Shown in pieces: positions 11,975 to 22,223 of a DNA stretch of 64,000 bases. The DNA comes from Fundidesulfovibrio terrae. GTDB lineage: Bacteria; Desulfobacterota; Desulfovibrionia; Desulfovibrionales; Desulfovibrionaceae. The translations under genes and the position numbers were made by a program. Every line of letters begins with the position of its first letter. The first letter of the stretch is position 1. The stretch covers positions 310,001 to 374,000 of the forward strand of contig NZ_JAKZFS010000002.1 of NCBI RefSeq assembly GCF_022808915.1. Direction: 5' to 3'. Below the pieces are notes generated by a model, which was not told the origin of the DNA, searched no databases, and worked only from the letters and a program-made list of their open reading frames with translations.

Positions 11975-12433
11975 ATGGACAACCTCTTCACTCATCTGGT
12001 CAGGGTCTCCCTGGCCCTCGCGTTTCTCGCGGCGGGTGCGGTCAAGCTGGCCCGGCCCGGGGCATTCGCCGTCATCGTCGGCGCCTTCGGCGTCCTGCCC
12101 GAGGCCGCCGTGGGGCCGTTGTCCGTGGCGCTGCCCTGTCTGGAACTGGTGGCGGGCGTCCTGCTCCTGCTGAACCGCGGGGGCGGGCTCGCGCTCACCG
12201 GCGGGCTTCTGGTCCTGTTCGTGGCGGTGCTTCTCTACGCCCTGAAGATGGGCCTGGACGTGGACTGCGGCTGCTACGGCCCCTCCGATCCGGAGCTCGA
12301 GGCCTTCGGCTCCATCCGTCGGGCGCTCTGGCGCGACGGGGCCATGCTGGCGGGGGTGGCCTTCCTGTGCTGGCGGCGGATGCGCACGCTCCGCCCGGGC
12401 CTCTCCTCCCCCAAACGTGCAATTCCAACCTGA
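11975..12433 (+). CDS. MauE/DoxX-like redox membrane protein
   Basis: A 152-residue integral membrane protein with four helices. The pattern RVSLALAFLAAGAVKLARPGAF in helix 1 and DCGCYGP in a loop near residues 100-106 match the MauE family. MauE-like proteins are proposed to help transfer reducing power or maturate disulfide proteins across the membrane. A GGAG site ten bases before ATG 11975 decides the start over the earlier ATG at 11945. The rhodanese-domain protein follows 11 bp later with its own strong ribosome-binding site, so the pair is probably one operon moving sulfur or thiols in the envelope. Confidence 0.78.
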   Translation: MDNLFTHLVRVSLALAFLAAGAVKLARPGAFAVIVGAFGVLPEAAVGPLSVALPCLELVAGVLLLLNRGGGLALTGGLLVLFVAVLLYALKMGLDVDCGCYGPSDPELEAFGSIRRALWRDGAMLAGVAFLCWRRMRTLRPGLSSPKRAIPT

Positions 12434-12444
12434 GGAGGATTCCG

Positions 12445-12972
12445 ATGGCGTTTCGTTTTTCAGTGTCCGCGCTCATGTGCGCCGTGATCATGACGGTCTT
12501 CACCGCCGGGGCTTTCGCCAAGGACATGTTCGAGGAGGAAGTGGACAAGGACGCCCTGTCCGTGAAGCTGGCCCGCGAGACCGTGTCCGGCGGCTACACC
12601 CTGGTCACGGCCGAAGAGCTCAAGAAGATGCAGGACGAGAAGAAGCCCATGCTGGTTGTGGACACCATGCCCTTCGAGGCCAGCTACAAGAAGGAGCACG
12701 TGGCCGGAGCCGTATCCTTCGAGTTCCCCATCGAGCCCATGGAGCAGTGGGACGCCTCCAAGACCGGCGGTAAGACCCCCCAGGATTTCGAGAAGCTGCT
12801 CGGCCCCGACAAGAACAGGCTCATCGTGTTCTACTGCGGCTTCGTCAAGTGTACCCGCAGCCACAACGGGGCCATTTGGGCCAAGAAACTGGGCTACGCA
12901 AGCGTGGTGCGCTTTCCCGGCGGCATCTACGCCTGGAAAGGGGCCAAATACCCCGTGGAAGAGGCGAAATAA
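12445..12972 (+). CDS. Periplasmic rhodanese-like protein
   Basis: This 175-residue protein has an N-terminal signal sequence (MAFRFSVSALMCAVIMTVFT, cleavage after AFA) and a single rhodanese domain: LVVDTMPFEASYKKEHVAGAVSFEF, then the active loop FYCGFVKCTRS and VVRFPGGIYAWKGAKYPVE. The catalytic cysteine should be the one after FY (about C132); a second cysteine four residues on could form a disulfide. Rhodaneses transfer sulfane sulfur, while redox-active variants exist. GAGGAGGA precedes the ATG. It follows the MauE-like gene, and together they look like a thiol-handling unit. Confidence 0.85.
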   Translation: MAFRFSVSALMCAVIMTVFTAGAFAKDMFEEEVDKDALSVKLARETVSGGYTLVTAEELKKMQDEKKPMLVVDTMPFEASYKKEHVAGAVSFEFPIEPMEQWDASKTGGKTPQDFEKLLGPDKNRLIVFYCGFVKCTRSHNGAIWAKKLGYASVVRFPGGIYAWKGAKYPVEEAK

Positions 12973-13054
12973 ATTTCGCCCTGTCCCTAAAGTCCGCCTC
13001 CAGGGTGCCGATATGAGTTTCGAAACGGCGCAGACCGTCTCCTGGAGGTGGGTC

Positions 13055-13300
13055 ATGAGCAGCGACAGCAGCGGCATCTCGGGCATGTCCGGAGTCTCCG
13101 GCATGAACACGATGCAGACGGCGATGGATACCAAGGCCGCGAAGCAGGAATTCGGGGCCGGAGTGGTCAAGACCACGCTCGATTACATGAATTCCGGCTC
13201 TTTCGGCGGGTCGGGCAAGAACTCGGATTACGACTTTCAGACCAAGGTCCTCGAGGGCGGCTTCATGGCCAAGGGGACGATGGTTTCGGGAAAGGTCTAG
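13055..13300 (+). CDS. Small Ser/Gly/Met-rich protein of unknown function
   Basis: An 81-residue soluble protein. The first 20 residues are a low-complexity run of S, G and M (SSDSSGISGMSGVSGMNTM). A short helical segment follows (DTKAAKQEFGAGVVKTTLDYM), then a glycine-rich loop. A strong GGAGGTG ribosome-binding site four bases before ATG 13055 supports the start. A hairpin terminator follows. The composition weakly recalls small motility-associated proteins, but I cannot assign a family. Confidence 0.65.
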   Translation: MSSDSSGISGMSGVSGMNTMQTAMDTKAAKQEFGAGVVKTTLDYMNSGSFGGSGKNSDYDFQTKVLEGGFMAKGTMVSGKV

Positions 13301-13329
13301 AACCGACGGATGCGCCGCATGCAGTACGC

Positions 13330-13361
13330 GCCGGTCCGGCTTGACGCCGGACCGGCGTTTT
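13330..13361 (+). terminator. Rho-independent terminator
   Basis: A 10-bp stem GCCGGTCCGG / CCGGACCGGC with a 7-base loop, followed by GTTTT. It ends the small gene at 13300 and sits against the stop of the convergent dehydrogenase gene. Confidence 0.8.
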
Positions 13362-13364
13362 CGT

Positions 13365-14357
13365 TCATGCGGTTTCGGTCAGGAAGTCGGCGTTGACCAC
13401 GTTCTGGGCTTGGCCGTTCAGGAACCCCCGGATGTTGGCCGCGGTGATGCCCATGAGGCGCTGCCGCGCCGTGAGCGAGGCCCAGGCCATGTGCGGGGTG
13501 ATGAGGCAGTTTCTTGCGCCGAGCAGCGGATTGGCCGGATCGGGGGGCTCCACGCCCAGAACGTCCAGGGCGGCTCCGGCCAGATGGCCTGAATTGAGGG
13601 CCTGCGCCAAGTCCGCTTCGTTGACCAGCTTTCCGCGCGCGGTGTTCACCAGGTAGCCGCCTGGCTTCATGAGCCTGAGCAGCCTCTCGCTCACGAACCC
13701 CTCGTTGCCTTTGGTGAGCGGGCAATGCAGGCTGACCGCGTCCGCTTCCTTGAAAAGTTCCTCCAGGCCGACGAAGGCGAAGAAGGGGGATTTCAGGGGC
13801 TCCTTGGGCCTGGGCGCATGGGCCACCACGCGCATGCCGAAGGCCAGGGCCAGCTCAGCCACGCGCCTGCCGATGGCCCCAAACCCGACCACGCCCAGGG
13901 TTTTTCCCGCCAGCTCGAACTGCGGCGTGGCCCAGAAGGTGAATTCGGCCCGCCTGTTCCATTCCCCGTCGCGCACCAGCGAGTCGTGCAGCTCCACCCT
14001 GCGGGTCAGGGCCAGAAGCTGGGCCATGACGAACTGGGCCACGGACTCGGCCCCGTAGCCGGGCACGTTGGAGACCGGTATGCCTCGCTTGCCCGCGGCG
14101 GAGACGTCCACCACGTCGTAGCCCGTGGCCAGCACAGCGATGAATTCGCAGGCTTTCAAGCCCTCCAGCACCTCGTGGGTGATGCGGGTCTTGTTGGTGA
14201 CGACGATGCGCGCTCCCTTGGCCCGTTCGACGGTCAGCTCGGGCGGGGTCTTGTCATAGAGGGTGAATTGGCCCAGGGCCGCCACCTCGTCCCAGGGATT
14301 GTCTCCCGGGTTGAGGGTGGCGCCGTCCAAGACGACAATGGAAGGCTTCTCGCTCAT
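13365..14357 (-). CDS. D-2-hydroxyacid dehydrogenase
   Basis: A 330-residue NAD(P)-dependent oxidoreductase that interconverts a 2-oxo acid and a D-2-hydroxy acid. The nucleotide-binding motif GVVGFGAIGRRVAEL lies near residues 160-174. Catalytic residues are R in NTARGKLVNE, E in LDVLGVEPP and H in TPHMAWAS, where the family's usual HxxW spacing is kept. The sequence style resembles glycerate dehydrogenase/hydroxypyruvate reductase (HprA), and the substrate is not certain. It starts just upstream of the convergent terminator and precedes no metabolic partner. The two genes upstream on the same strand encode a lipoprotein and an unknown protein. Confidence 0.9.
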   Translation of the reverse strand: MSEKPSIVVLDGATLNPGDNPWDEVAALGQFTLYDKTPPELTVERAKGARIVVTNKTRITHEVLEGLKACEFIAVLATGYDVVDVSAAGKRGIPVSNVPGYGAESVAQFVMAQLLALTRRVELHDSLVRDGEWNRRAEFTFWATPQFELAGKTLGVVGFGAIGRRVAELALAFGMRVVAHAPRPKEPLKSPFFAFVGLEELFKEADAVSLHCPLTKGNEGFVSERLLRLMKPGGYLVNTARGKLVNEADLAQALNSGHLAGAALDVLGVEPPDPANPLLGARNCLITPHMAWASLTARQRLMGITAANIRGFLNGQAQNVVNADFLTETA

Positions 14358-14360
14358 GGC

Positions 14361-14801
14361 TCACATCTGCTGTTTATAGACGTCGAATTTCTGGGAGAGG
14401 GTCTCTCCCTTGTCCGTTTCCACGCGCAGTTCCCAGTGCCCTGAGACCAGTTCCCAGGGCTCCGAGAAGGTGAAGAACACATCGTAGGTCTGGCCGGGGT
14501 CGAGGGTCAACTCCGAGACGTAGTCCGTCTGGACCTTGGATTTGGACGGGTCGATGAGCCCCGGCGTGGCCGTGACGATCCGGGCCTTGACCGGGCCCGA
14601 CTTGCTCTGCGCGACCTTGAAGCGGAATCCGAAGGTGGTGCCGATGGCCATGGGCACTCCGTTCGTCTGCATGTCCAGGCGGCCGTCCTTGAAGATGCCG
14701 TACTCGGTGGTTTCCAGCATGCTGGACGAATCACCCAGGCCGATCATGGAACAGGCGGGCAGGAGAAGGGCCAGCAGAAAAACGGCAAGGAGTCTTTTCA
14801 T
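14361..14801 (-). CDS. Lipoprotein, DUF3859-like
   Basis: The 146-residue product has a lipoprotein signal (MKRLLAVFLLALLLPACSMI, lipid-modified C17). The mature part, with EYGIFKDGRLD near the start and a series of beta strands ending GHWELRVETDKGETLSQKFDVY, matches the DUF3859 pattern of a small extracytoplasmic beta-sandwich of unknown role. Its ATG overlaps the stop of the preceding gene as ATGA, so the two are translationally coupled. Confidence 0.75.
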   Translation of the reverse strand: MKRLLAVFLLALLLPACSMIGLGDSSSMLETTEYGIFKDGRLDMQTNGVPMAIGTTFGFRFKVAQSKSGPVKARIVTATPGLIDPSKSKVQTDYVSELTLDPGQTYDVFFTFSEPWELVSGHWELRVETDKGETLSQKFDVYKQQM

Positions 14802-15289
14802 GATTTCCTCTGGTTGGGGTTGCCGAAGGCCAGGGCGGCAAGAGGCGTCTTGCCTTCGAAGAGGACGTCCGTCCTGCTCCGGTCCGAGTCGAGGATCTTG
14901 AGCCGGGAGACCGACGGCGGCTCCTGCCTCCCCCCGTACAGGACCAGCGCCTGGTCGATGAAGCCCGCCAGGATGAAGCTGGCGGTCACTTCGGCCAGGG
15001 AGCTTCGGCCCTCCTCGAAAACGTGGAGCTTGGCGGTGACGAGGGAATGGGAGGCGTCGGAGAGCATGTTGCCGGTCTTGACCAGGGTGGCCTGCACCCT
15101 CTCGGGGAGCATGCCCGCCCAGCGGCTCAGGTACTTGAGGAACCCCGGCTGGATGGCCAGGTAGTAAAAGGGGTCCACCTTGCAGGCCAGGGACGTTCCC
15201 GGCGTGCCCAGGATGTAGGGCGAATGCTGGTAATTCTCGCCCAGGGCCTTTTGCAGCCTCTCGAGGGATTGCGAGTAGTCGGTGAGCAT
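14798..15289 (-). CDS. Cytoplasmic protein of unknown function
   Basis: A 163-residue soluble protein; the ATG at 15289 is preceded by an AGGGGACAGGAC ribosome-binding site, whereas the longer frame upstream has no good start. Mostly helical, with ALGENYQHSPYILGTPGTSLACKVDP near residues 17-42. It overlaps the DUF3859-like lipoprotein gene by four bases (ATGA). No family is recognised and no catalytic motif is obvious. Confidence 0.65.
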   Translation of the reverse strand: MLTDYSQSLERLQKALGENYQHSPYILGTPGTSLACKVDPFYYLAIQPGFLKYLSRWAGMLPERVQATLVKTGNMLSDASHSLVTAKLHVFEEGRSSLAEVTASFILAGFIDQALVLYGGRQEPPSVSRLKILDSDRSRTDVLFEGKTPLAALAFGNPNQRKS

Positions 15290-15540
15290 GTCCTGTCCCC
15301 TTTGGGCCTGGTCCAGGCAGACCAGGCAGACCGGCGTCTTTGCGCGAGGAACCCGCCACCATCCTACACGGTTACGCGGGTGAGGAAAACCCGTATCTCG
15401 TCCGTGCCGCTGTCCGAGGGCGCGAGCCGGACGCGCACGTGCCCCCGCGCCCGCAGGGGCAGTTTCGCGTTGAACTGCTCTTTCGAACATGCTAAATTTG
15501 CAAAAGATAAATCAGTGATTGGATATATGCGGCAGGCCAA

Positions 15541-16152
15541 ATGAATCTTTCTCCCCAGCAGCTCGACCTCCTCAAAGAGTTGATCAACATCGGTGTCGGC
15601 AAGGCGGCGGGACTCATCAACCAGATGGTGAGCACCCACGTGAGCCTCGACCTGCCCGAGATACTGGTTTTGTCCCCCGCCGAATGCGAGGGAAGGCTCG
15701 GGCACGGCTACGACCAGACGCTCTCCACCGTGCGCCTGGGGTTCCGCGGCCCGTTCTCGGGCTGGGCCGGGCTGGTTTTTCCCAAGCAGAGCGCATCCTG
15801 GCTGGTCTCCCAGATGCTCGGGCAGGACCTGGACGGCTACCCCATGGACCTGGATTCGCTGCGCATAGGCACCATCCAGGAAGTGGGCAACATCGTGCTC
15901 AACGGGGTGATGGGGTCCATCGTCAACGTGCTCGGCGTGGGCGTGGACTACTTTCCCCCGGACTACTTCGAAAGCAACATCGCCGACCTGTTCAAGGACG
16001 GCGGCGAGAACCCTCGGGTGATCATCCTCATCAAGGCCCGGTTCAGCCTCGAAGGGACCGTGGCCGAAGGCGACATCCTCATCTTCTTCCACATGGCCAC
16101 CTTCGAAAACCTTCTGGCCGCGCTGGACAGGCTCCTGAACCCCCAGACGTAG
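15541..16152 (+). CDS. cheC: CheC-type CheY-phosphate phosphatase
   Basis: This 203-residue protein has the CheC/FliY/CheX fold and should dephosphorylate CheY-P. Two complete active-site helices are present: E13-x2-N16-x22-P39 in LKELINIGVGKAAGLIN, and E114-x2-N117-x22-P140 in IQEVGNIVLNGVMGSIVN. Many homologues keep only one. No CheD gene is beside it. It is followed 15 bp later by a PAS-GGDEF gene, and the CheA/CheY pair faces it from the other strand, so the CheY at 18784 is the likely target. Confidence 0.88.
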   Translation: MNLSPQQLDLLKELINIGVGKAAGLINQMVSTHVSLDLPEILVLSPAECEGRLGHGYDQTLSTVRLGFRGPFSGWAGLVFPKQSASWLVSQMLGQDLDGYPMDLDSLRIGTIQEVGNIVLNGVMGSIVNVLGVGVDYFPPDYFESNIADLFKDGGENPRVIILIKARFSLEGTVAEGDILIFFHMATFENLLAALDRLLNPQT

Positions 16153-16167
16153 AGAGCGAGGCCCGAC

Positions 16168-17130
16168 ATGCCGCACAACGGCCCGTTCCACTCCATGGAT
16201 TTCCTGCCCCTGGGGATCATGGTGCTGGACAGGAACTTCGAGATACTCTTCTGGAACGCCTGCCTGGAGTCCTGGAGCGGGCTCGGACGCGGCGTGGCCG
16301 TGGGCCGCGACGCCCGGGAGCTCTTTCCCCAGCTGAACCGCCCCATCGTCACGGACCGCTTGCTGGACCTGTTCGAGGGCGCGCCCCCGGCCGTATTCTC
16401 CTACCATCTGCACAACCACATCATCCCGGCTCCGCTGCCGGGCGGGGCGCTTCGGCTGCAGCATTCCGTGGCCTACGGCGTCCGCGGGCCCGGCGGCACG
16501 GTGGACCATGTGGTGCTCTCGCTCCAGGACGTCACCGAGATACACAACCGCCTGCAGGAGAACCTGCGCATCAAGGCCAGCCTCGAGCGCGAAAACCGCC
16601 TGCGCAAGCGCATCGAGACCAAGCTCAGCAAGCTGGCCTCCTTCGACATGCTCACCGGCCTGGCCAACCGCCGCCATTTCCTGAACCTGCTCATCAAGGA
16701 GATACGCCGCGCCAAGCGCTACGGCCACCCTCTGTGCCTGGTGGGCATCGACGTGGACCACTTCAAGGACGTCAACGACGCCTGGGGGCACCTGGCGGGC
16801 GACGAGCTGCTCAAGGCTTTCGCCCATGTCTGCCAGGACGAGGTGCGCGACGTGGACTCCGTGGGCCGCCTGGGCGGCGAGGAGTTCGGGATCATCCTGC
16901 CCGAAACCGGCGTCGACGAGGCCATGCAGGTGGCGGAGCGCATACGCCACCGGGTGAAGAGCATCGCCATCCTCAAGGAGGGCGGGGTCATATCGGTCAC
17001 GGCCAGCCTGGGCGTGACCTGCCTCTCGGAGAACCAGACCATCGAGGACGTGCTCCATGCCGCCGACCAGGCCCTGTACCTGGCCAAGAGCCGGGGGCGC
17101 GACCGGGTGGTGCAGGCGCCGGGGATGTGA
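16168..17130 (+). CDS. PAS-GGDEF diguanylate cyclase
   Basis: The 320-residue cytoplasmic enzyme has an N-terminal PAS domain (about 8-125, with GIMVLDRNFEILFWN), a helical linker (126-155) and a GGDEF domain. The signature GGEEF is at 236-240, with an intact inhibitory I-site R227-x2-D230 five residues before it, so c-di-GMP feedback inhibition is expected. It makes c-di-GMP from two GTP. It is co-transcribed with cheC (gap 15 bp) and converges with the CheA-like gene (stops 6 bp apart). The arrangement links a chemotaxis-like phosphorelay to second-messenger output. Confidence 0.93.
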   Translation: MPHNGPFHSMDFLPLGIMVLDRNFEILFWNACLESWSGLGRGVAVGRDARELFPQLNRPIVTDRLLDLFEGAPPAVFSYHLHNHIIPAPLPGGALRLQHSVAYGVRGPGGTVDHVVLSLQDVTEIHNRLQENLRIKASLERENRLRKRIETKLSKLASFDMLTGLANRRHFLNLLIKEIRRAKRYGHPLCLVGIDVDHFKDVNDAWGHLAGDELLKAFAHVCQDEVRDVDSVGRLGGEEFGIILPETGVDEAMQVAERIRHRVKSIAILKEGGVISVTASLGVTCLSENQTIEDVLHAADQALYLAKSRGRDRVVQAPGM

Positions 17131-17136
17131 CGCCGC

Positions 17137-18759
17137 TCACTCCGCCAGGACAACCCCCTGGGCCTGCCTCGCCAGGAAGCGGGGGTCCACGATCAGGCAC
17201 ATGGACCCATCCTCGCCCAAGGCCGCCCCGAGAAACGCATCCTGGGCCAGGAGTTTCTTGTCCAGGGCCTTGACCATCACCTGGCTGAGTCCCAGCACCT
17301 CGTCCACCGTGGCCCCGAAACGCACCCCGCCGTGCCGGGCCACCACCAGATGGCGTACGGTCCGGCCCGGGCGCGCAAGCCCGAAGAGCACGTCCAGGTT
17401 GAGGCAGGGCAGAAGCCGCCCGTCCGGGGCGCAGGTGGCGGCCGCCCGACGCGGGGACTGTTCCTCTTGCGGGGGCACGGCCTGCTCCACGCATTGCTCC
17501 ACGCATTCCATGGGCAGGAAGTAGAACTCCTCTCCCACCCGCACCCGTAAACATTCCATCAGCGACATGGACAGCGGGGCGCGCAGGGTGAACACCGCCC
17601 CCTTTCCTGGCGCGGTCTCGAGGCTCACCTCGCCGCCCAGCTCCTCGAGGGAGGCGCGCACCGCGTCCAGGCCTACTCCGCGCCCCGAAACGGCGTCCAC
17701 CTCTCCCGACGTGGACACGCCCGGCAGAAACACCAGCCCGACCATCTCCCGGGGCGTCATGGCCGCGTCGGACGCCACGAGCCCGGCCTGCGCGGCCTTG
17801 TCGAACACCGCCCGGGCGTCGATGCCCGCCCCGTCGTCGGCCACGGTGAGCACGATCTCGCCGCCCTCCTGGCGGACGTCCACCGCGATGGTCGCGGTGG
17901 ACGGCTTCCCGGCCATGAGCCGCTGGGCCTGCGTCTCGATGCCGTGGCGCACGGCGTTGCGCAGCAGATGCACCAGGGGCGTGTTGAGCTTTTCAATGAG
18001 CGACTTGTCCAGCTCGGTCATCTCGCCAGACACCATGAAGTCGATATCCTTGCCCGCCTCGGCGGCCAGGTCGCGCACCATGCGCCGGTATTTGGCAGTG
18101 ACCGCCTGGAAGGGAAGTAGGCGCATCTCCAGGATGGCCTGGCCGAGGCCCGCAAGCTGGCGCTCCAGATCCCCGGACAGGCTCAGGTACTGCCAGCGCC
18201 GCTCGCTGCGGGCCAGGGCGCCGAGCTTGGCGTTGGCCAGCATGATCTCGCCCATGCGGCCGAGCAGATGGTCCAGCCGGGCGGCGCTCACGTTGTAGCT
18301 CAGCTCCAGCGCCTCCGGGGCCTGGGCCTCCTGCGTCTGGGCCAGGGGCTGCAGGGAGCCGGCGGCCTGGGCGCGCCGTCCCGGGGAATCCTGCCACTGG
18401 GCCAGGGCGGCCAGGGCCTGCTCCGCGCCGGTGGCTGGCTCGTCCGGCGCGCACCGGATGGCTTCCCCCAGGGCGTCGAAGGCTGTCAGCAGGGCCGAAA
18501 TCAGCCCGGAGGAGGGCGCAAGCTCGCGCCCGCGCAGCCGGTGCAGCACGGTCTCCATCTCGTGGCAGTGCTGGGATATGCGGGAGAAATGCAGGGTGGC
18601 GGCGTCGCCCTTGATGGTGTGCACGCCCCTGAACACCGCCTCGACGGCCTGGGCGGCGGTGTCGGCGTCCGCGTTCTCCAGGTCCAGAATACGGGCCTCG
18701 GCGCGGGTGAGCTGGTCCAGGGAGCTTTCCCTGAAGATGGCCAACAGGGCCGGATCCAT
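17137..18759 (-). CDS. cheA: CheA-like histidine kinase (Hpt-kinase-CheW)
   Basis: A 540-residue cytoplasmic kinase with the CheA layout but no clear P2 domain. It has an N-terminal Hpt domain with phosphorylated H47 (VHTIKGDAATL), a dimerisation/P3 region (about 150-230), a GHKL ATPase with N-box LLRNAVRHGIE and G-boxes VADDGAGID and GRGVGLDAV, and a C-terminal CheW-like domain (about 405-540). The Hpt motif has GDA where most CheA have GSA or GSS. CheW and receptor genes are absent, so input is unknown; partners may be encoded elsewhere. It follows the CheY gene by 24 bp. Confidence 0.93.
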   Translation of the reverse strand: MDPALLAIFRESSLDQLTRAEARILDLENADADTAAQAVEAVFRGVHTIKGDAATLHFSRISQHCHEMETVLHRLRGRELAPSSGLISALLTAFDALGEAIRCAPDEPATGAEQALAALAQWQDSPGRRAQAAGSLQPLAQTQEAQAPEALELSYNVSAARLDHLLGRMGEIMLANAKLGALARSERRWQYLSLSGDLERQLAGLGQAILEMRLLPFQAVTAKYRRMVRDLAAEAGKDIDFMVSGEMTELDKSLIEKLNTPLVHLLRNAVRHGIETQAQRLMAGKPSTATIAVDVRQEGGEIVLTVADDGAGIDARAVFDKAAQAGLVASDAAMTPREMVGLVFLPGVSTSGEVDAVSGRGVGLDAVRASLEELGGEVSLETAPGKGAVFTLRAPLSMSLMECLRVRVGEEFYFLPMECVEQCVEQAVPPQEEQSPRRAAATCAPDGRLLPCLNLDVLFGLARPGRTVRHLVVARHGGVRFGATVDEVLGLSQVMVKALDKKLLAQDAFLGAALGEDGSMCLIVDPRFLARQAQGVVLAE

Positions 18760-18783
18760 GGGGCGTTTCCGGAAACCGGCGGA

Positions 18784-19146
18784 TCAGGCGGTTGGAAGGA
18801 GCCTGGACAGGACGCCGCGCAGGGCTTCTTCGTCCACGGGCTTGTGGAGGACCTCGCGCGCCCCGAGTTCCAGGCAGCGGGCCTTGGTGGTGTGCTGGAT
18901 GTCCGCCGTGACCACGGCCGTGGTGAAGGCTTTGCCGCTGTCGCGCAGGGCTTCCAGCACCTCCAGCCCGGAGAGCTCCGGCATGTTCAGGTCCATGATG
19001 ATGAGGTCGGGGGCCTTGTCCAGGGCCAGGTCCAGGAGTTCCCTGCCCGTGGCGGCCTCGAGGGGCGCGTGGCCCGTTTCCGTCACGATCTTTTTGATGA
19101 AGAAGCGCTGGAACATGGAATCGTCGGCGATCAGGACAACGGACAT
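18784..19146 (-). CDS. CheY-like single-domain response regulator
   Basis: The 120-residue receiver domain has acidic pocket D8-D9 (LIADDSM), phospho-acceptor D52 in IIMDLNMPELSG, a conserved threonine in VVTADI, and lysine in LHKPVD. There is no output domain. It is the first gene of an operon with the CheA-like kinase and is the presumed partner of the nearby CheC phosphatase. The ATG at 19146 gives the normal receiver N-terminus; a longer frame upstream is arginine-rich and unlikely. Confidence 0.92.
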   Translation of the reverse strand: MSVVLIADDSMFQRFFIKKIVTETGHAPLEAATGRELLDLALDKAPDLIIMDLNMPELSGLEVLEALRDSGKAFTTAVVTADIQHTTKARCLELGAREVLHKPVDEEALRGVLSRLLPTA

Positions 19147-19393
19147 GGCAACCTCGCAAATGATGTCGGCGGGGGACACTACCGCGCGCCGCCTCCGGGC
19201 ACAACGGCAAGTTTTGGGAGAGAGTGGGGAGCTGATGTGCTGATTTCTCGGCATTTTCGTCCCGGCGGTTGCGTCCGGATGGCGTTCCCGTTACAAAGGT
19301 GCCATGTGAGTGGAAAACCCGTCCATTGGGCGGAGGCGGACGGCAGATAAGGCTCCAGGGACGAACCTTTAAAGGATACCAAGGGAGACTGGC

Positions 19394-21472
19394 ATGCTTG
19401 ACGTTCTCAAAAATCAGCGGACCTACGCTCTCATCGGCCACGGCGGTTGCGGCAAAACCTCCGTGGCCGAAATGCTTCTGTATGTAGCCGGGGCGGTGCC
19501 CAAACTGGGAAAAATCGAAGACGGCAACACCGCCCTTGACTACGAGCCCGAGGAAATCAAGCGCCGGGGTTCCGTTCAGCCCGGTTTCGCCACCTTCCAA
19601 TGGAACAAGAACCGCCACTTCCTTATCGACACTCCGGGAGACCTCTCCTTCAACGGCGACCTGGGATACATTCTGGCCGCCGTGGACGCGGTCATCTTCG
19701 TGGTGGACGCGGTCGACGGCGTGAAGCCCTTGACCAGGAAGCTCTGGCAGGAAGTCTCCAAATTTCGCCTGCCCACGATCTTCCTCATCACCAAAATGGA
19801 CCGCGACCGGGCCGACTACGACATGGCCCTCTCCGGCATCAAGAACCAGCTCGGCGTCAAGCCCTTCCTGCAGAACATCCCCATTGGCAAGGCCGACTCT
19901 TTCTCCGGCGTGGTGAACATCGTCGAGAACAAGGCCTACGCTTTCGACGCCACCGGCAAGGTCAGCGAGATCGCCATCCCCGCCGACATGAAGGACGAGG
20001 TCGAGGGCATGCGCGAGACCATGATGGAAGAAATCGCCGTGTGCGACGAAACCCTCATGGAACGCTACCTGGAAGACCCCGAAAGCGTCTCCCTGGACGA
20101 TCTTGTGGCCGCCACCCGCAAGGCCGTGGTCTGCGGCGAGCTCTACCCGGTCATGGTGGCCTCGGGGCTCAAGTGCATGGGCGGCCAGCGCATCCTGGAC
20201 GCGGCCCAGCTCTTCTTCCCCTCGCCCCTGGACACCCCCGTGGGCGAAAAAACCGTCGACGGCGAGGACGAGTCGCTTCTCACGGTCACCCCCAGCGGTC
20301 CGCCCGCCTGCTTCGTGTTCAAGACCATGTTCGACCAGTTCGCGGGACAGCTCTCGGTGATGCGCGTGCTCTCGGGCACCATCGCCCAGGACGCCGCGCT
20401 CCTGAACACCCGCTCCGACGCCAGGGAGCGCTTCGGCTCCATCCTCTATCTGAACGGCGCTCAGAACCAGCAGGTCAAGGAGCCCGTGGGGCCCGGCGCC
20501 ATCATCGCCGTGGCCAAGCTCAAGGAAACCAAGACCGGCGACACCCTCTGCGACGAGAAGAAGCCGTTCACCATGCTGAAGCCCAAGCTGCCCGAGCCCA
20601 TGATCTCCTACGCCATGGCCCCGGCGGAAAAGGGCGACGAGGACAAGGCCTACCAGGCCATGGCCAAGCTCCTGGACGAGGACGTCACCTTGAGGCTCAC
20701 CCGCAACGAGGAGACCGGGGACATGCTCATCTCGGGCATGGGCCAGTCCCACGTGGAGGCCTTGGTGGAAAAGGCCAAGCGGCGCTTCAAGGTGGGCGTG
20801 GTGCTCAAGGCACCCACCATCCCCTACCGTGAGACCGTGCGGGGCAAGGCCGAGGTGCAGGGCCGTCACAAGAAGCAGACCGGCGGGCGCGGCCAGTTCG
20901 GCGACTGCTGGATCAGGATGGAGGGCAAGGCGCGCGGCGAGGGCTACGAATTCGTTGACGCAATCGTTGGCGGCTCCATCCCCCGCCAGTACATCCCGGC
21001 CGTGGACAAGGGCGTGCAGGAGGCGGCCGCGCGCGGGGTGCTGGCCGGATACCCCATGGTGGACTTCCGGGTGGAGCTGTTCGACGGCTCCTTCCACACC
21101 GTGGATTCCTCGGAAATGGCCTTCAAGATCGCCGGGTCGGTGGCCTTCAAGGCGGCCTGCGAGAAGCTCAAGATCGTGCTCCTGGAGCCCATCGCGCTGG
21201 TGAGCGTGTCCATCCCGGACAGCTTCATGGGCGACGTCATCGGCGACCTCTCCAGCCGCCGGGGCAAGGTGCTGGGGTCGGATTCGACGGGAGGCGTCAC
21301 GGAAGTGCAGGCCCACGTGCCCATGAGCGAGATGCAGGAATACGCCAAGACCCTGGGCTCCATGACCGGCGGCCAGGGGGCCTTCACCATGGGCTTCGAC
21401 CACTACGAGGACGCCCCGCCCCCGGTGGCCGAGAAGGTGATCGCCGAGCACAAGAAGGCCAAGGAAGAATAG
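19394..21472 (+). CDS. Elongation factor G-like GTPase (EF-G paralogue)
   Basis: This 692-residue translational GTPase has P-loop GHGGCGKTS (15-23), DTPGD (78-82) and TKMDRD (G4). EF-G domains II to V follow, including YRETV and the domain IV/V boundary HVPMSEMQEYAKTLGSMTGGQGAF. Switch I lacks the canonical RGITI; it reads RRGSVQPGFATF. That divergence and the cysteine in the P-loop mark it as the FusA2-like paralogue group rather than the main factor. Its exact role (ribosome recycling, stress or other) is not established. A GGGAGACTGGC site precedes the start, and a strong terminator follows. Confidence 0.88.
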   Translation: MLDVLKNQRTYALIGHGGCGKTSVAEMLLYVAGAVPKLGKIEDGNTALDYEPEEIKRRGSVQPGFATFQWNKNRHFLIDTPGDLSFNGDLGYILAAVDAVIFVVDAVDGVKPLTRKLWQEVSKFRLPTIFLITKMDRDRADYDMALSGIKNQLGVKPFLQNIPIGKADSFSGVVNIVENKAYAFDATGKVSEIAIPADMKDEVEGMRETMMEEIAVCDETLMERYLEDPESVSLDDLVAATRKAVVCGELYPVMVASGLKCMGGQRILDAAQLFFPSPLDTPVGEKTVDGEDESLLTVTPSGPPACFVFKTMFDQFAGQLSVMRVLSGTIAQDAALLNTRSDARERFGSILYLNGAQNQQVKEPVGPGAIIAVAKLKETKTGDTLCDEKKPFTMLKPKLPEPMISYAMAPAEKGDEDKAYQAMAKLLDEDVTLRLTRNEETGDMLISGMGQSHVEALVEKAKRRFKVGVVLKAPTIPYRETVRGKAEVQGRHKKQTGGRGQFGDCWIRMEGKARGEGYEFVDAIVGGSIPRQYIPAVDKGVQEAAARGVLAGYPMVDFRVELFDGSFHTVDSSEMAFKIAGSVAFKAACEKLKIVLLEPIALVSVSIPDSFMGDVIGDLSSRRGKVLGSDSTGGVTEVQAHVPMSEMQEYAKTLGSMTGGQGAFTMGFDHYEDAPPPVAEKVIAEHKKAKEE

Positions 21473-21510
21473 GGAACGCGGGCCGCACGGCCGAACATGA
21501 TTGAAAGCGA

Positions 21511-21536
21511 AACCCCGGGGCGACCCGGGGTTTTTT
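21511..21536 (+). terminator. Rho-independent terminator
   Basis: A 9-bp stem AACCCCGGG / CCCGGGGTT with a 4-base loop, continuing into TTTT. It ends the EF-G-like gene about 40 bp past its stop. Confidence 0.9.
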
Positions 21537-21549
21537 GCGTTGGGGGGCG

Positions 21550-21999
21550 TTACGCCGCCCTTTGCCTCTCGCGCTCCATCTCCAGCGCCTTGCAGGCCAG
21601 CATCACCACCTTGGGGATGATGCGCGCGCCCTGTTCGTAATAGATCACCGCCCGGCGGGTGATGCCCAGTTCCTTGGCCGTGGCTGCCTGGGTTAGGCCC
21701 AGACGCTTGCGCCACGCCTTGAAGTCCTCCGGGCGCATGGCGTTGCCGAACTGGCGCTCCGACATCCGCCACAGCGCGTCACCGCCTACTTCCAGGCCGA
21801 TGCCCGGCCATTCCACGCTGGCGCCGTATTCGCCGACACGCACGGCGGCGAAGGCGGCCTCGTCACGCAAGACGGCCTTCTTCCCTGTGGCGAATTCCGA
21901 CAGATCGACCTCGCGGACGCCGTCGCGCCCGAAATCCACCTTGAGCCGGGTTTCCCCGCACGCCTCCACGGCCTTGATTCTCGGATACTTGTCGCTCAT
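21550..21999 (-). CDS. DUF2442 protein fused to an XRE-type HTH (likely antitoxin/repressor)
   Basis: The 149-residue protein has an N-terminal DUF2442-like domain (KVDFGRDGVREVDLSEF, then EYGASVEWPGIGLEVGGDALW) and a C-terminal helix-turn-helix: MRPEDFKAWRKRLGLTQAAT, then KELGITRRAVIYYEQG, a typical XRE recognition helix region. DUF2442 usually occurs as a stand-alone partner of DUF4160. The fused HTH suggests it also binds DNA and controls its own operon. The start at 21999 overlaps the DUF4160 stop (ATGA); GGAGG lies 10 bases upstream, whereas the earlier ATG at 22008 is too close to it. Confidence 0.82.
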   Translation of the reverse strand: MSDKYPRIKAVEACGETRLKVDFGRDGVREVDLSEFATGKKAVLRDEAAFAAVRVGEYGASVEWPGIGLEVGGDALWRMSERQFGNAMRPEDFKAWRKRLGLTQAATAKELGITRRAVIYYEQGARIIPKVVMLACKALEMERERQRAA

Positions 22000-22223
22000 T
22001 CGTTCCATTCCTCCCAGGCCGCCATGATGACGTCATGGTTGGCCCTGGCCCATTCCCGCACCTGCCTAAGCACTGCAGGAGGCGCGTCACTCGCCAGCAT
22101 CTCCAACGTCTCCAGGTCCAACGAGCACTGGAATCCCGGCCCGGCAAGATGGAAATGGGCTCTTCCATGCTCTCCGCCGAAAACAGCCAGACGCACCTTG
22201 CCGAACCGCTTGATCGTGCCCAT
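21996..22223 (-). CDS. DUF4160 protein (putative toxin-like partner)
   Basis: A 75-residue protein. The pattern VRLAVFGGEHGRAHFHL is the DUF4160 core with histidines spaced for metal or nucleic-acid contact, and REWARANHDVIMAAWEEWNE is the usual C-terminal helix. DUF4160 and DUF2442 genes are widely found as adjacent pairs that resemble toxin-antitoxin modules; biochemical proof is lacking. Here it is first in a two-gene operon. Its start codon lies 5 bp past a predicted -10 box, so the transcript is probably leaderless. Confidence 0.82.
   Translation of the reverse strand: MGTIKRFGKVRLAVFGGEHGRAHFHLAGPGFQCSLDLETLEMLASDAPPAVLRQVREWARANHDVIMAAWEEWNE

Follow-up and report, generated by a model that had tools for sequence, protein, structure and literature searches.

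What would a CheA kinase, a lone CheY, a CheC phosphatase and a diguanylate cyclase do together where no receptor lies beside them? The question is raised by four genes of Fundidesulfovibrio terrae, which lie in a stretch of 64,000 nucleotides, the window, that covers positions 310001-374000 of contig C2 in a 3.9 Mb genome. A previous analysis of the letters alone (hereafter the sequence-only reading) had taken them for a minimal chemotaxis core wired to cyclic dimeric guanosine monophosphate (c-di-GMP). Comparison with relatives changes the first part of this description, since the constant unit turned out to be CheY, CheC and a particular PAS domain, and CheA is replaced in relatives by a hybrid kinase with an Hpt domain, by a lone Hpt protein or by nothing nearby. 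We propose, with a probability of roughly 0.6, that the locus encodes a "detachable response regulator", whose core would consist of CheY, of a CheC with two active sites and of a PAS domain dedicated as input port, the kinase and the output enzyme being exchangeable. Four lines of sequence comparison point in this direction: the linkage of the genes, their intact catalytic residues, a single PAS subfamily with swapped outputs and the co-variation of PAS and CheC.

The order, strands and tail-to-tail arrangement of the four genes were confirmed, together with their coordinates, as follows (positions in the window). Throughout the text, L numbers refer to fetched loci or stretches, G numbers to genomes, g numbers to members of the family, and C1, C4 and C7 to other contigs of the same genome.

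15541..16152, + strand: cheC, predicted two-site CheC phosphatase, 203 amino acids (domain matches, active-site residues, AlphaFold model)
16168..17130, + strand: predicted PAS-GGDEF diguanylate cyclase, 320 amino acids (Pfam PAS_4 at residues 13-124, GGDEF at 157-313; model)
16177..16554, + strand: CheC-linked PAS domain ("triPAS") of the cyclase (166.3 bits to profile A4; subfamily test)
16846..16887, + strand: cyclase I-site RDVD and active site GGEEF, sequence RDVDSVGRLGGEEF (motif, alignment)
17137..18759, - strand: cheA, with Hpt (P1), short P3, HATPase (P4) and CheW-like (P5) domains, no P2 found, 540 amino acids (domain matches)
18784..19146, - strand: cheY, stand-alone receiver with a TADIQ signature, 120 amino acids (Pfam Response_reg 3.2e-23; signature comparison)

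The genes are tightly packed, with 15 bp between cheC and the cyclase gene, 6 bp between the converging stops of the cyclase gene and cheA, and 24 bp between cheA and cheY.

Catalytic residues of CheC and the cyclase

The CheC protein matched the CheC_Thtogales model of NCBIfam with an E-value of 6.6e-15, well under the equivalog cut-off of that model, and the CheX family of Pfam with 1.2e-7. Both active sites are intact, as the sequence-only reading had it, with the Glu-x-x-Asn pairs present at D9-E13-N16 and E114-N117; across 55 aligned rows, E13 is kept in 54, and N16, E114 and N117 in all 55. Its AlphaFold model, with a predicted local distance difference test score (pLDDT) of 87.2, found as top match in the PDB the CheC of Thermotoga maritima (1xkr, template modelling score 0.84). 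By sequence and model, two E-x-x-N sites on a CheC fold place the protein among the CheC phosphatases, and it would be expected to dephosphorylate CheY~P.

In the cyclase, Pfam recognized a GGDEF domain (2.8e-46) and a PAS_4 domain (2.4e-8), which in the model (pLDDT 92.1) are joined by a 36-residue helix (residues 123-158). The I-site is also intact as claimed, the RxxD and GGEEF motifs being readable in the sequence itself, and residues R227, D230 and G236-F240 are invariant in 10 aligned cyclases, the one of the window included. This combination of GG[DE]EF and RxxD is, at the motif level, that of diguanylate cyclases, and the protein probably synthesizes c-di-GMP. Among 29 GGDEF domains inspected in relatives, 26 keep the RxxD...GG[DE]EF arrangement, two read GGEEL and one match was cut before the end of the motif.

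A PAS subfamily linked to CheC

A profile was trained on ten CheC-linked PAS domains taken from PAS-GGDEF proteins of Desulfovibrionaceae, and the subfamily test was done leaving out the repeated loci L123, L124, L138, L160 and L177. In the genome of F. terrae, the PAS domain of the window scored 166.3 bits and the runner-up 23.4 bits. At other loci, the first PAS domain of the gene accompanying CheC reached a median of 121 bits (n = 57), with 56 of the 57 above 90 bits and the remaining one (L149, 52 bits) lying at a contig end. The CheC-linked PAS domains of histidine kinases scored 103-152 bits with this cyclase-trained profile, and the kinase of L094, which had been held out, gave 145 bits. 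None of the second and later PAS domains in these proteins exceeded 12.6 bits (n = 33), and the remaining PAS domains of the stretches concerned (n = 86) had a median below detection; three of them exceeded 40 bits, the next being at 38, and all three lie near CheC: directly behind a receiver-CheC fusion in L170, directly ahead of CheC in L188, and ahead of it by two receiver genes in L201. On these scores, the PAS domain beside CheC is a single distinct subfamily whatever output it carries, with a signature in the alignment that reads roughly PxG...WNxCLExW...G[AG]PPxxFSxxLHxxIIP...QDVT[ED]. The window locus shows the arrangement that defines the module, this PAS directly downstream of CheC. 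A named family for the domain was sought and discarded: Pfam returned generic PAS families, NCBIfam a generic PAS model below its cut-off, and the best PDB match was 3mxq at 2.6e-5.

The linkage also holds in the opposite direction. Among 297 Desulfobacterota genomes, 21 matches to the PAS profile (E <= 1e-15) were found in 19 genomes, and 19 of the 21 have a CheC within about 1.5 kb; the other two lie on a 5.9 kb contig (L237) and at a contig end (L243). A second, more distant PAS branch scored 56-74 bits among these matches. Of the 25 genomes behind the named loci described below, 21 contained PAS matches, and 29 of the 30 fetched copies are beside CheC (four weaker matches were not fetched); these 21 genomes were chosen for holding the module, so only their extra copies count as independent tests. 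In the exception, L297, the PAS follows CheB-CheR, and the CheC of that genome (L153) is on another contig. Summing both searches, whose genome sets possibly overlap, CheC is no more than about 1.5 kb away from 48 of 51 PAS copies.

Some of the fetched copies showed particular forms. In L240/L262 and L253/L260, CheA comes after the cyclase (REC-CheC-PAS-GGDEF-CheA, REC being the receiver). A short CheC-linked PAS protein (open frame of 213-222 amino acids) with no output domain found, followed by a receiver and CheC, occurs in L246, L248 and L249, and also in L266 and L267, as a possible output-free form. The genome of L202 (G455, Candidatus Magnetocorallium) holds six CheC-linked PAS matches, and the three that were fetched are all beside CheC. 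Receiver and CheC are fused in open frames of about 320-350 amino acids, either as the CheC nearest to that of the window (L154, L155) or as an extra copy near another CheC (L170, L176); in L170 a PAS domain is directly 3' of the fusion gene.

Trees and correlations were calculated with 55 of 90 rows, those left after thinning at 80% CheC identity. On the CheC tree, which has many weak forks and two long rows, the output switches between GGDEF and histidine kinase at least nine times and CheA presence at least seven times. A single origin of the CheAs of the module was considered and dropped, as their own tree is too weak and its long branches meet. Pairwise identities, taken from matrices that ignore shared ancestry, correlate at 0.93 between CheC and PAS (n = 50) and at 0.74 between CheC and the receiver. 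Within the GGDEF set (n = 24) the values were 0.90 for CheC-PAS and 0.82 for CheC-REC, against 0.37 for CheC-GGDEF and 0.40 for PAS-GGDEF; within the histidine kinase set (n = 21) they were 0.79 and 0.61, against 0.35 for CheC-HATPase and 0.27 for PAS-HATPase. Taking the output domain encoded by the same gene as the control, these identities indicate that the PAS changes along with CheC and CheY, and far less with its own fused enzyme.

Exchangeable kinases and outputs in relatives

Within Desulfovibrionaceae, 22 of the 23 other genomes with a CheC match were read in fetched stretches of at most 20 kb, G097 being seen only in short loci. The cassette of CheC-cyclase facing CheA-CheY is identical in arrangement in five other genomes of the genus and occurs in three settings (the window and L089, beside an EF-G gene; L087 and L088; L090 and L091), and the same four parts are codirectional in other genera (L092 and L100, in the order CheY-CheC-CheA-PAS-GGDEF), all of which supports the earlier idea that they form one unit wired to a cyclase. 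In L094, CheY-CheC-CheA is followed by a PAS-PAS-histidine kinase, and in L103 and L104 an Hpt protein of 101-103 amino acids stands in the order CheY-CheC-Hpt-PAS-GGDEF. In g25 and g41, CheY-CheC comes after a hybrid kinase with a C-terminal REC-Hpt, and no PAS-output gene adjoins. CheC is followed by PAS-PAS-GGDEF in L105 and L106, with no receiver seen upstream (only 0.5 kb is available there in L105), and the PAS of L105 scored 98.8 bits to the CheC-linked profile. L093, L118 and L119 contain CheC without any of these partners. Directly upstream of cheC, a Cache-HAMP-PAS histidine kinase is encoded in L087 (10369-12597, by Pfam) and L088 (7420-9648, by home-made profile), which makes it a candidate extra sensor.

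More distant neighbourhoods were read in the best 80 of 203 CheC relatives, the named loci: 44 Cyanobacteriota, 15 Thermodesulfobacteriota, 12 Nitrospirota, 2 Chloroflexota, 2 Acidobacteriota, 1 Myxococcota, 1 Bacteroidota and 3 unassigned. Their neighbour counts come from home-made profiles, with Pfam checks covering 15 proteins, and are not thinned for redundancy; they include repeats of loci fetched earlier (L123, L124, L126, L132, L138, L160, L177, L184), identical CheCs (L144/L147, L145/L146) and many near-identical Microcoleus. Strains with the module include Fundidesulfovibrio agrisoli SG106, Calothrix sp. PCC 7103, Oscillatoria sp. PCC 10802 and Microcoleus vaginatus HSN003. Directly upstream of CheC there are, by domain coordinates, 73 stand-alone receivers, 2 receiver-CheC fusions, 1 HATPase and 1 CheC, with 3 loci having none. 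The next gene downstream (same strand, within 900 bp) encodes a PAS-GGDEF protein in 33 cases, a PAS-histidine kinase in 20, CheA in 4, Hpt in 1, a PAS in 3 and a PAS-PAS in 1 (these four with no output domain found in frame), and is lacking in 18. A scan reaching 4 kb from CheC showed the CheC-linked PAS in 62 loci out of 80 and in six phyla (Cyanobacteriota 38/44, Nitrospirota 10/12, Thermodesulfobacteriota 7/15, Chloroflexota 2/2, Acidobacteriota 2/2, Bacteroidota 1/1, Myxococcota 0/1, unassigned 2/3), and CheA lies within 7 kb in 14. Relatives do not usually carry these genes inside a complete chemotaxis operon: a methyl-accepting chemotaxis protein (MCP), CheR or CheB occurs within 7 kb in 16 of the 80, and CheA, CheW, MCP and CheB occur together in six (L165, L182, L183, L187, L192, L195), so that near-complete operons adjoin the module in a minority.

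CheY and CheA

CheY is indeed the stand-alone receiver that had been described, and its sequence suggests a tie to CheC. A [TS]A[DE]IQ motif is found in 89 of 105 CheC-adjacent receivers and in 8 of 116 others (counts not thinned for redundancy), and half of the 16 exceptions among the adjacent ones read TADVQ, SADVQ or TADTQ. The eight motif-bearing rows among the others are CheYs of the genus of the window, its own included (six distinct sequences, two of them fetched twice), and the motif thereby marks the window CheY as a probable CheC partner, although it lies about 3 kb from CheC, on the opposite strand and behind CheA. The signature is missing from two other CheYs and a WspR-like receiver inspected in the same genome.

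The domains attributed to CheA were recovered with Hpt at 4.3e-14, HATPase_c at 4.9e-15 and CheW at 1.1e-14; H-kinase_dim, matching at residues 157-212, stayed below its cut-off (20.6 vs 23 bits), and no P2 domain was reported in the domain searches of this protein. P1, P3 (the sub-threshold H-kinase_dim), P4 and P5 are therefore all there, as in chemosensory kinases. The phospho-accepting His box reads HTIKGD, with H47 and K50 invariant in nine aligned CheAs. Mean within-genus identities for P1/P4/P5 are 0.55/0.60/0.53 in this type of CheA (six sequences), and 0.83/0.79/0.75 and 0.96/0.94/0.93 in two other CheAs of the genus (five sequences each), giving P5/P4 ratios of 0.88 vs 0.95 and 0.99. 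A degenerate P5 as proof of receptor independence was considered and not adopted, as the whole CheA is fast-evolving and P5 only slightly faster; P5 being retained, CheA may couple to remote arrays.

Chemosensory genes elsewhere in the genome

The lack of receptor, adaptor, CheR, CheB and CheD that the sequence-only reading had stressed holds at the scale of the locus, but for receptor and adaptor it fails for the genome. No other CheW-domain or MCP match was found within the 64-kb window, and home-made profiles run over about 9.5 kb to each side of the genes detected neither CheR nor CheB nor any further two-component gene; no CheD-like gene was seen by eye beside CheC, no CheD profile having been used. 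The genome as a whole contains 16 CheW-domain matches, 42 MCP-domain matches and five CheAs, the one of the window included. Read by eye, these fall in clusters such as an MCP-CheW-(short gene)-CheA group beside flagellar genes, a CheA with CheY, ParA-, CheR-, HEAT- and CheB-like genes, and a cluster with an MCP-like gene, CheY, CheA, CheR and CheB. Another one (L111, C1:607000-626900) was read by eye as Wsp-like, with MCP, CheW, CheR, CheW, CheA, CheB and a REC-led regulator, its CheW and CheA parts being also found by domain search; the genome may then hold two CheA-type routes ending in c-di-GMP. In L112 (C4:105000-124900), two adjacent MCP-CheW pairs with near-identical CheWs and MCPs closely similar by eye are likely a tandem duplication. 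A receptor-free genome with the CheA form, which would settle receptor independence, was looked for, and MCP and CheW matches appeared in 13 of the 13 genomes searched.

As for the surroundings of the cassette, cheY adjoins a gene for an EF-G-like protein (692 amino acids, window 19394-21472), a neighbour shared with L089 (87% identical) and absent from the other stretches fetched for the genus. No c-di-GMP riboswitch or other RNA reached the gathering threshold in window positions 12000-22000.

A proposed mechanism and its alternatives

In the detachable response regulator that we favour, the phosphodonor of this locus would be a soluble CheA without P2 and the output a diguanylate cyclase with an intact I-site. 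CheA would autophosphorylate on its Hpt domain and then phosphorylate CheY, CheC would bind CheY~P, and the PAS domain would read the state of CheC/CheY~P and, by way of the helix between the two domains, switch GGDEF. The signal would end when CheC hydrolyses CheY~P, and c-di-GMP bound at the I-site would limit the output. We infer the transfer from Hpt to CheY, the two-site hydrolysis of CheY~P and the PAS control of GGDEF from the known chemistry of these families. Which of CheC and CheY~P touches the PAS may go either way, and CheC may end the signal or transmit it, both alternatives being compatible with the data. A bolder version, to which we would give somewhat less than even chances, makes CheC the reading subunit of a split response regulator: the CheY~P-CheC complex would dock on the dedicated PAS, a universal plug that, in six phyla or more, would bring cyclases, histidine kinases or even no enzyme under receiver control, with the kinase side equally exchangeable.

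Several observations weigh against the proposal of a detachable regulator. The module is patchy, with a CheC match (E <= 1e-8) in 24 of 149 genomes of the family, the one of F. terrae included, and none in G094 of the same genus. No CheC is seen near three of the 51 PAS copies (L237, L243, L297), and four of the other 48 (L245, L246, L248, L249) are separated from CheC by a receiver. The CheC-linked PAS is missing within 4 kb from 18 of the 80 named loci, and four of the 25 genomes behind them have CheC and no such PAS at E <= 1e-12, namely three Solidesulfovibrio genomes with a hybrid histidine kinase-REC-Hpt, CheY and CheC, and a cyanobacterium with CheY-CheC-CheA. Since such loci exist, CheC must have some role without this PAS. 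Moreover, the co-variation is uncorrected for ancestry and is also high between receiver and CheC (0.61-0.82), and in the genus of the window CheY sits on the other strand behind CheA.

One of the other explanations is that CheA joins receptor arrays through distant MCPs and CheWs, as an alternative cellular function (ACF) type of pathway with unlinked receptors and a c-di-GMP output. Partners would be at hand in the 42 MCP and 16 CheW matches of the genome, among them a lone CheW on C7 for which no neighbouring che gene was seen; P5 is kept, with an identity (0.53) little below that of P4 (0.60); and CheA-CheW-MCP genes are found next to the module in G178 (L264) and in six loci of cyanobacteria, an MCP gene on the opposite strand at a distance of about 1 kb in L262, and a CheW gene upstream of CheY in L094. 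However, no MCP, CheR, CheB or separate CheW lies within 7 kb of the cassette in the six genomes of the genus that carry it, nor beside the codirectional quartets L092, L100 and L260, a hybrid kinase or lone Hpt takes the place of CheA in relatives, and the P5/P4 ratio of 0.88 is lower than in the two other CheAs, a weak piece of evidence. We regard such remote coupling as rather unlikely, though it is the strongest of the competing views. PAS domains commonly bind ligands, and a less probable reading still is that this one senses a small molecule of its own as the input, sets the cyclase or kinase and tunes CheC, with CheY~P/CheC as a parallel or downstream branch. The conserved G[AG]PPxxFSxxLHxxIIP block is predicted, from secondary structure, to come behind the long PAS helix and to cover the neighbourhood of the following strand, where the ligands of many PAS domains are located, and a PAS-histidine kinase might phosphorylate CheY on its own. 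Some members lack the cysteine of WNxC (L193, L195, L265), so no obligate thiol chemistry is expected, and a free sensor would need neither the proximity to CheC seen in 48 of 51 copies nor a closer co-variation with CheC than with its own output.

It is very improbable, finally, that CheC and CheY serve the flagellar motor next to an accidental cyclase. In Bacillus and Thermotoga, CheC, CheY and CheA do serve flagellar chemotaxis, but here CheC recurs with the same PAS subfamily in six phyla, the CheY signature is missing from three other receivers of the genome that were inspected, two CheYs and a WspR-like one, G094 lacks CheC yet has 37 MCP matches, and a CheA-CheY-CheR-CheB cluster and a flagellar-linked CheA sit elsewhere in the genome. 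A flagellar role as the main one was discarded, the module being patchy and linked to PAS-output genes.

Relation to known systems

The Wsp system, a chemosensory pathway that ends in the REC-GGDEF protein WspR, has in common with this locus a CheA-type kinase and a c-di-GMP output. It differs in that the receiver is separate here, CheC is present, the cyclase carries PAS instead of REC, and no MCP, CheW, CheR or CheB is linked. The receiver-GGDEF fusion by which Wsp and ACF pathways with a REC-GGDEF output are recognized is absent from the window locus, and so are the pairs of CheW with MCP and CheR with CheB that define chemosensory loci. By its gene content, then, the locus is a chemosensory pathway on account of CheA, without the defining receptor, adaptor and adaptation genes in place, and it is not Wsp. 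In SiaABCD of Pseudomonas aeruginosa, a kinase, a phosphatase and a small switch protein govern a stand-alone diguanylate cyclase, but the switch protein is not a CheY and the chemistry is that of serine/threonine phosphorylation. The CheC-CheD systems of Thermotoga and Bacillus have the same CheC fold, with both active sites as in the window CheC; in those bacteria CheC acts with CheD and MCPs. Here, in contrast, a PAS-output gene takes the place next to CheC, where no CheD-like gene was seen by eye.

The nearest precedent that we found for a CheY controlling a separate cyclase is CheY3 of Shewanella oneidensis, a stand-alone protein whose phosphorylated form is required for biofilm and is reported to interact with several cyclases (PMC7666153). 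In that case CheY3 is the chemotaxis regulator itself, its phosphorylation in biofilm is said to be independent of CheA3, and no word beginning with PAS appears in the main text of the paper (PMC7666153). A survey of CheA architectures describes P2 as dispensable and CheC/CheX as fused to CheA in Leptospirae (PMC10782961), and the main text of a paper on Desulfovibrio vulgaris, with three described CheA loci, contains no word beginning with CheC (PMC3944678). No description of a receiver-CheC-PAS module was recognized in searches of an open-access paper library, going by titles and the beginnings of abstracts, most subscription papers being outside this scope. The module is widespread and made of known domains in a combination that is apparently undescribed.

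Biological significance

The receivers of textbook two-component systems are usually fused to their output, and in this locus receiver, phosphatase and output appear as three proteins joined via a specialized PAS domain. With such a three-protein design, simple gene exchange would be enough for cyclases or further kinases to be fed by CheA, by hybrid kinases or by a lone Hpt. In this regard, CheC gains a likely role outside chemotaxis, together with a short list of conserved surfaces.

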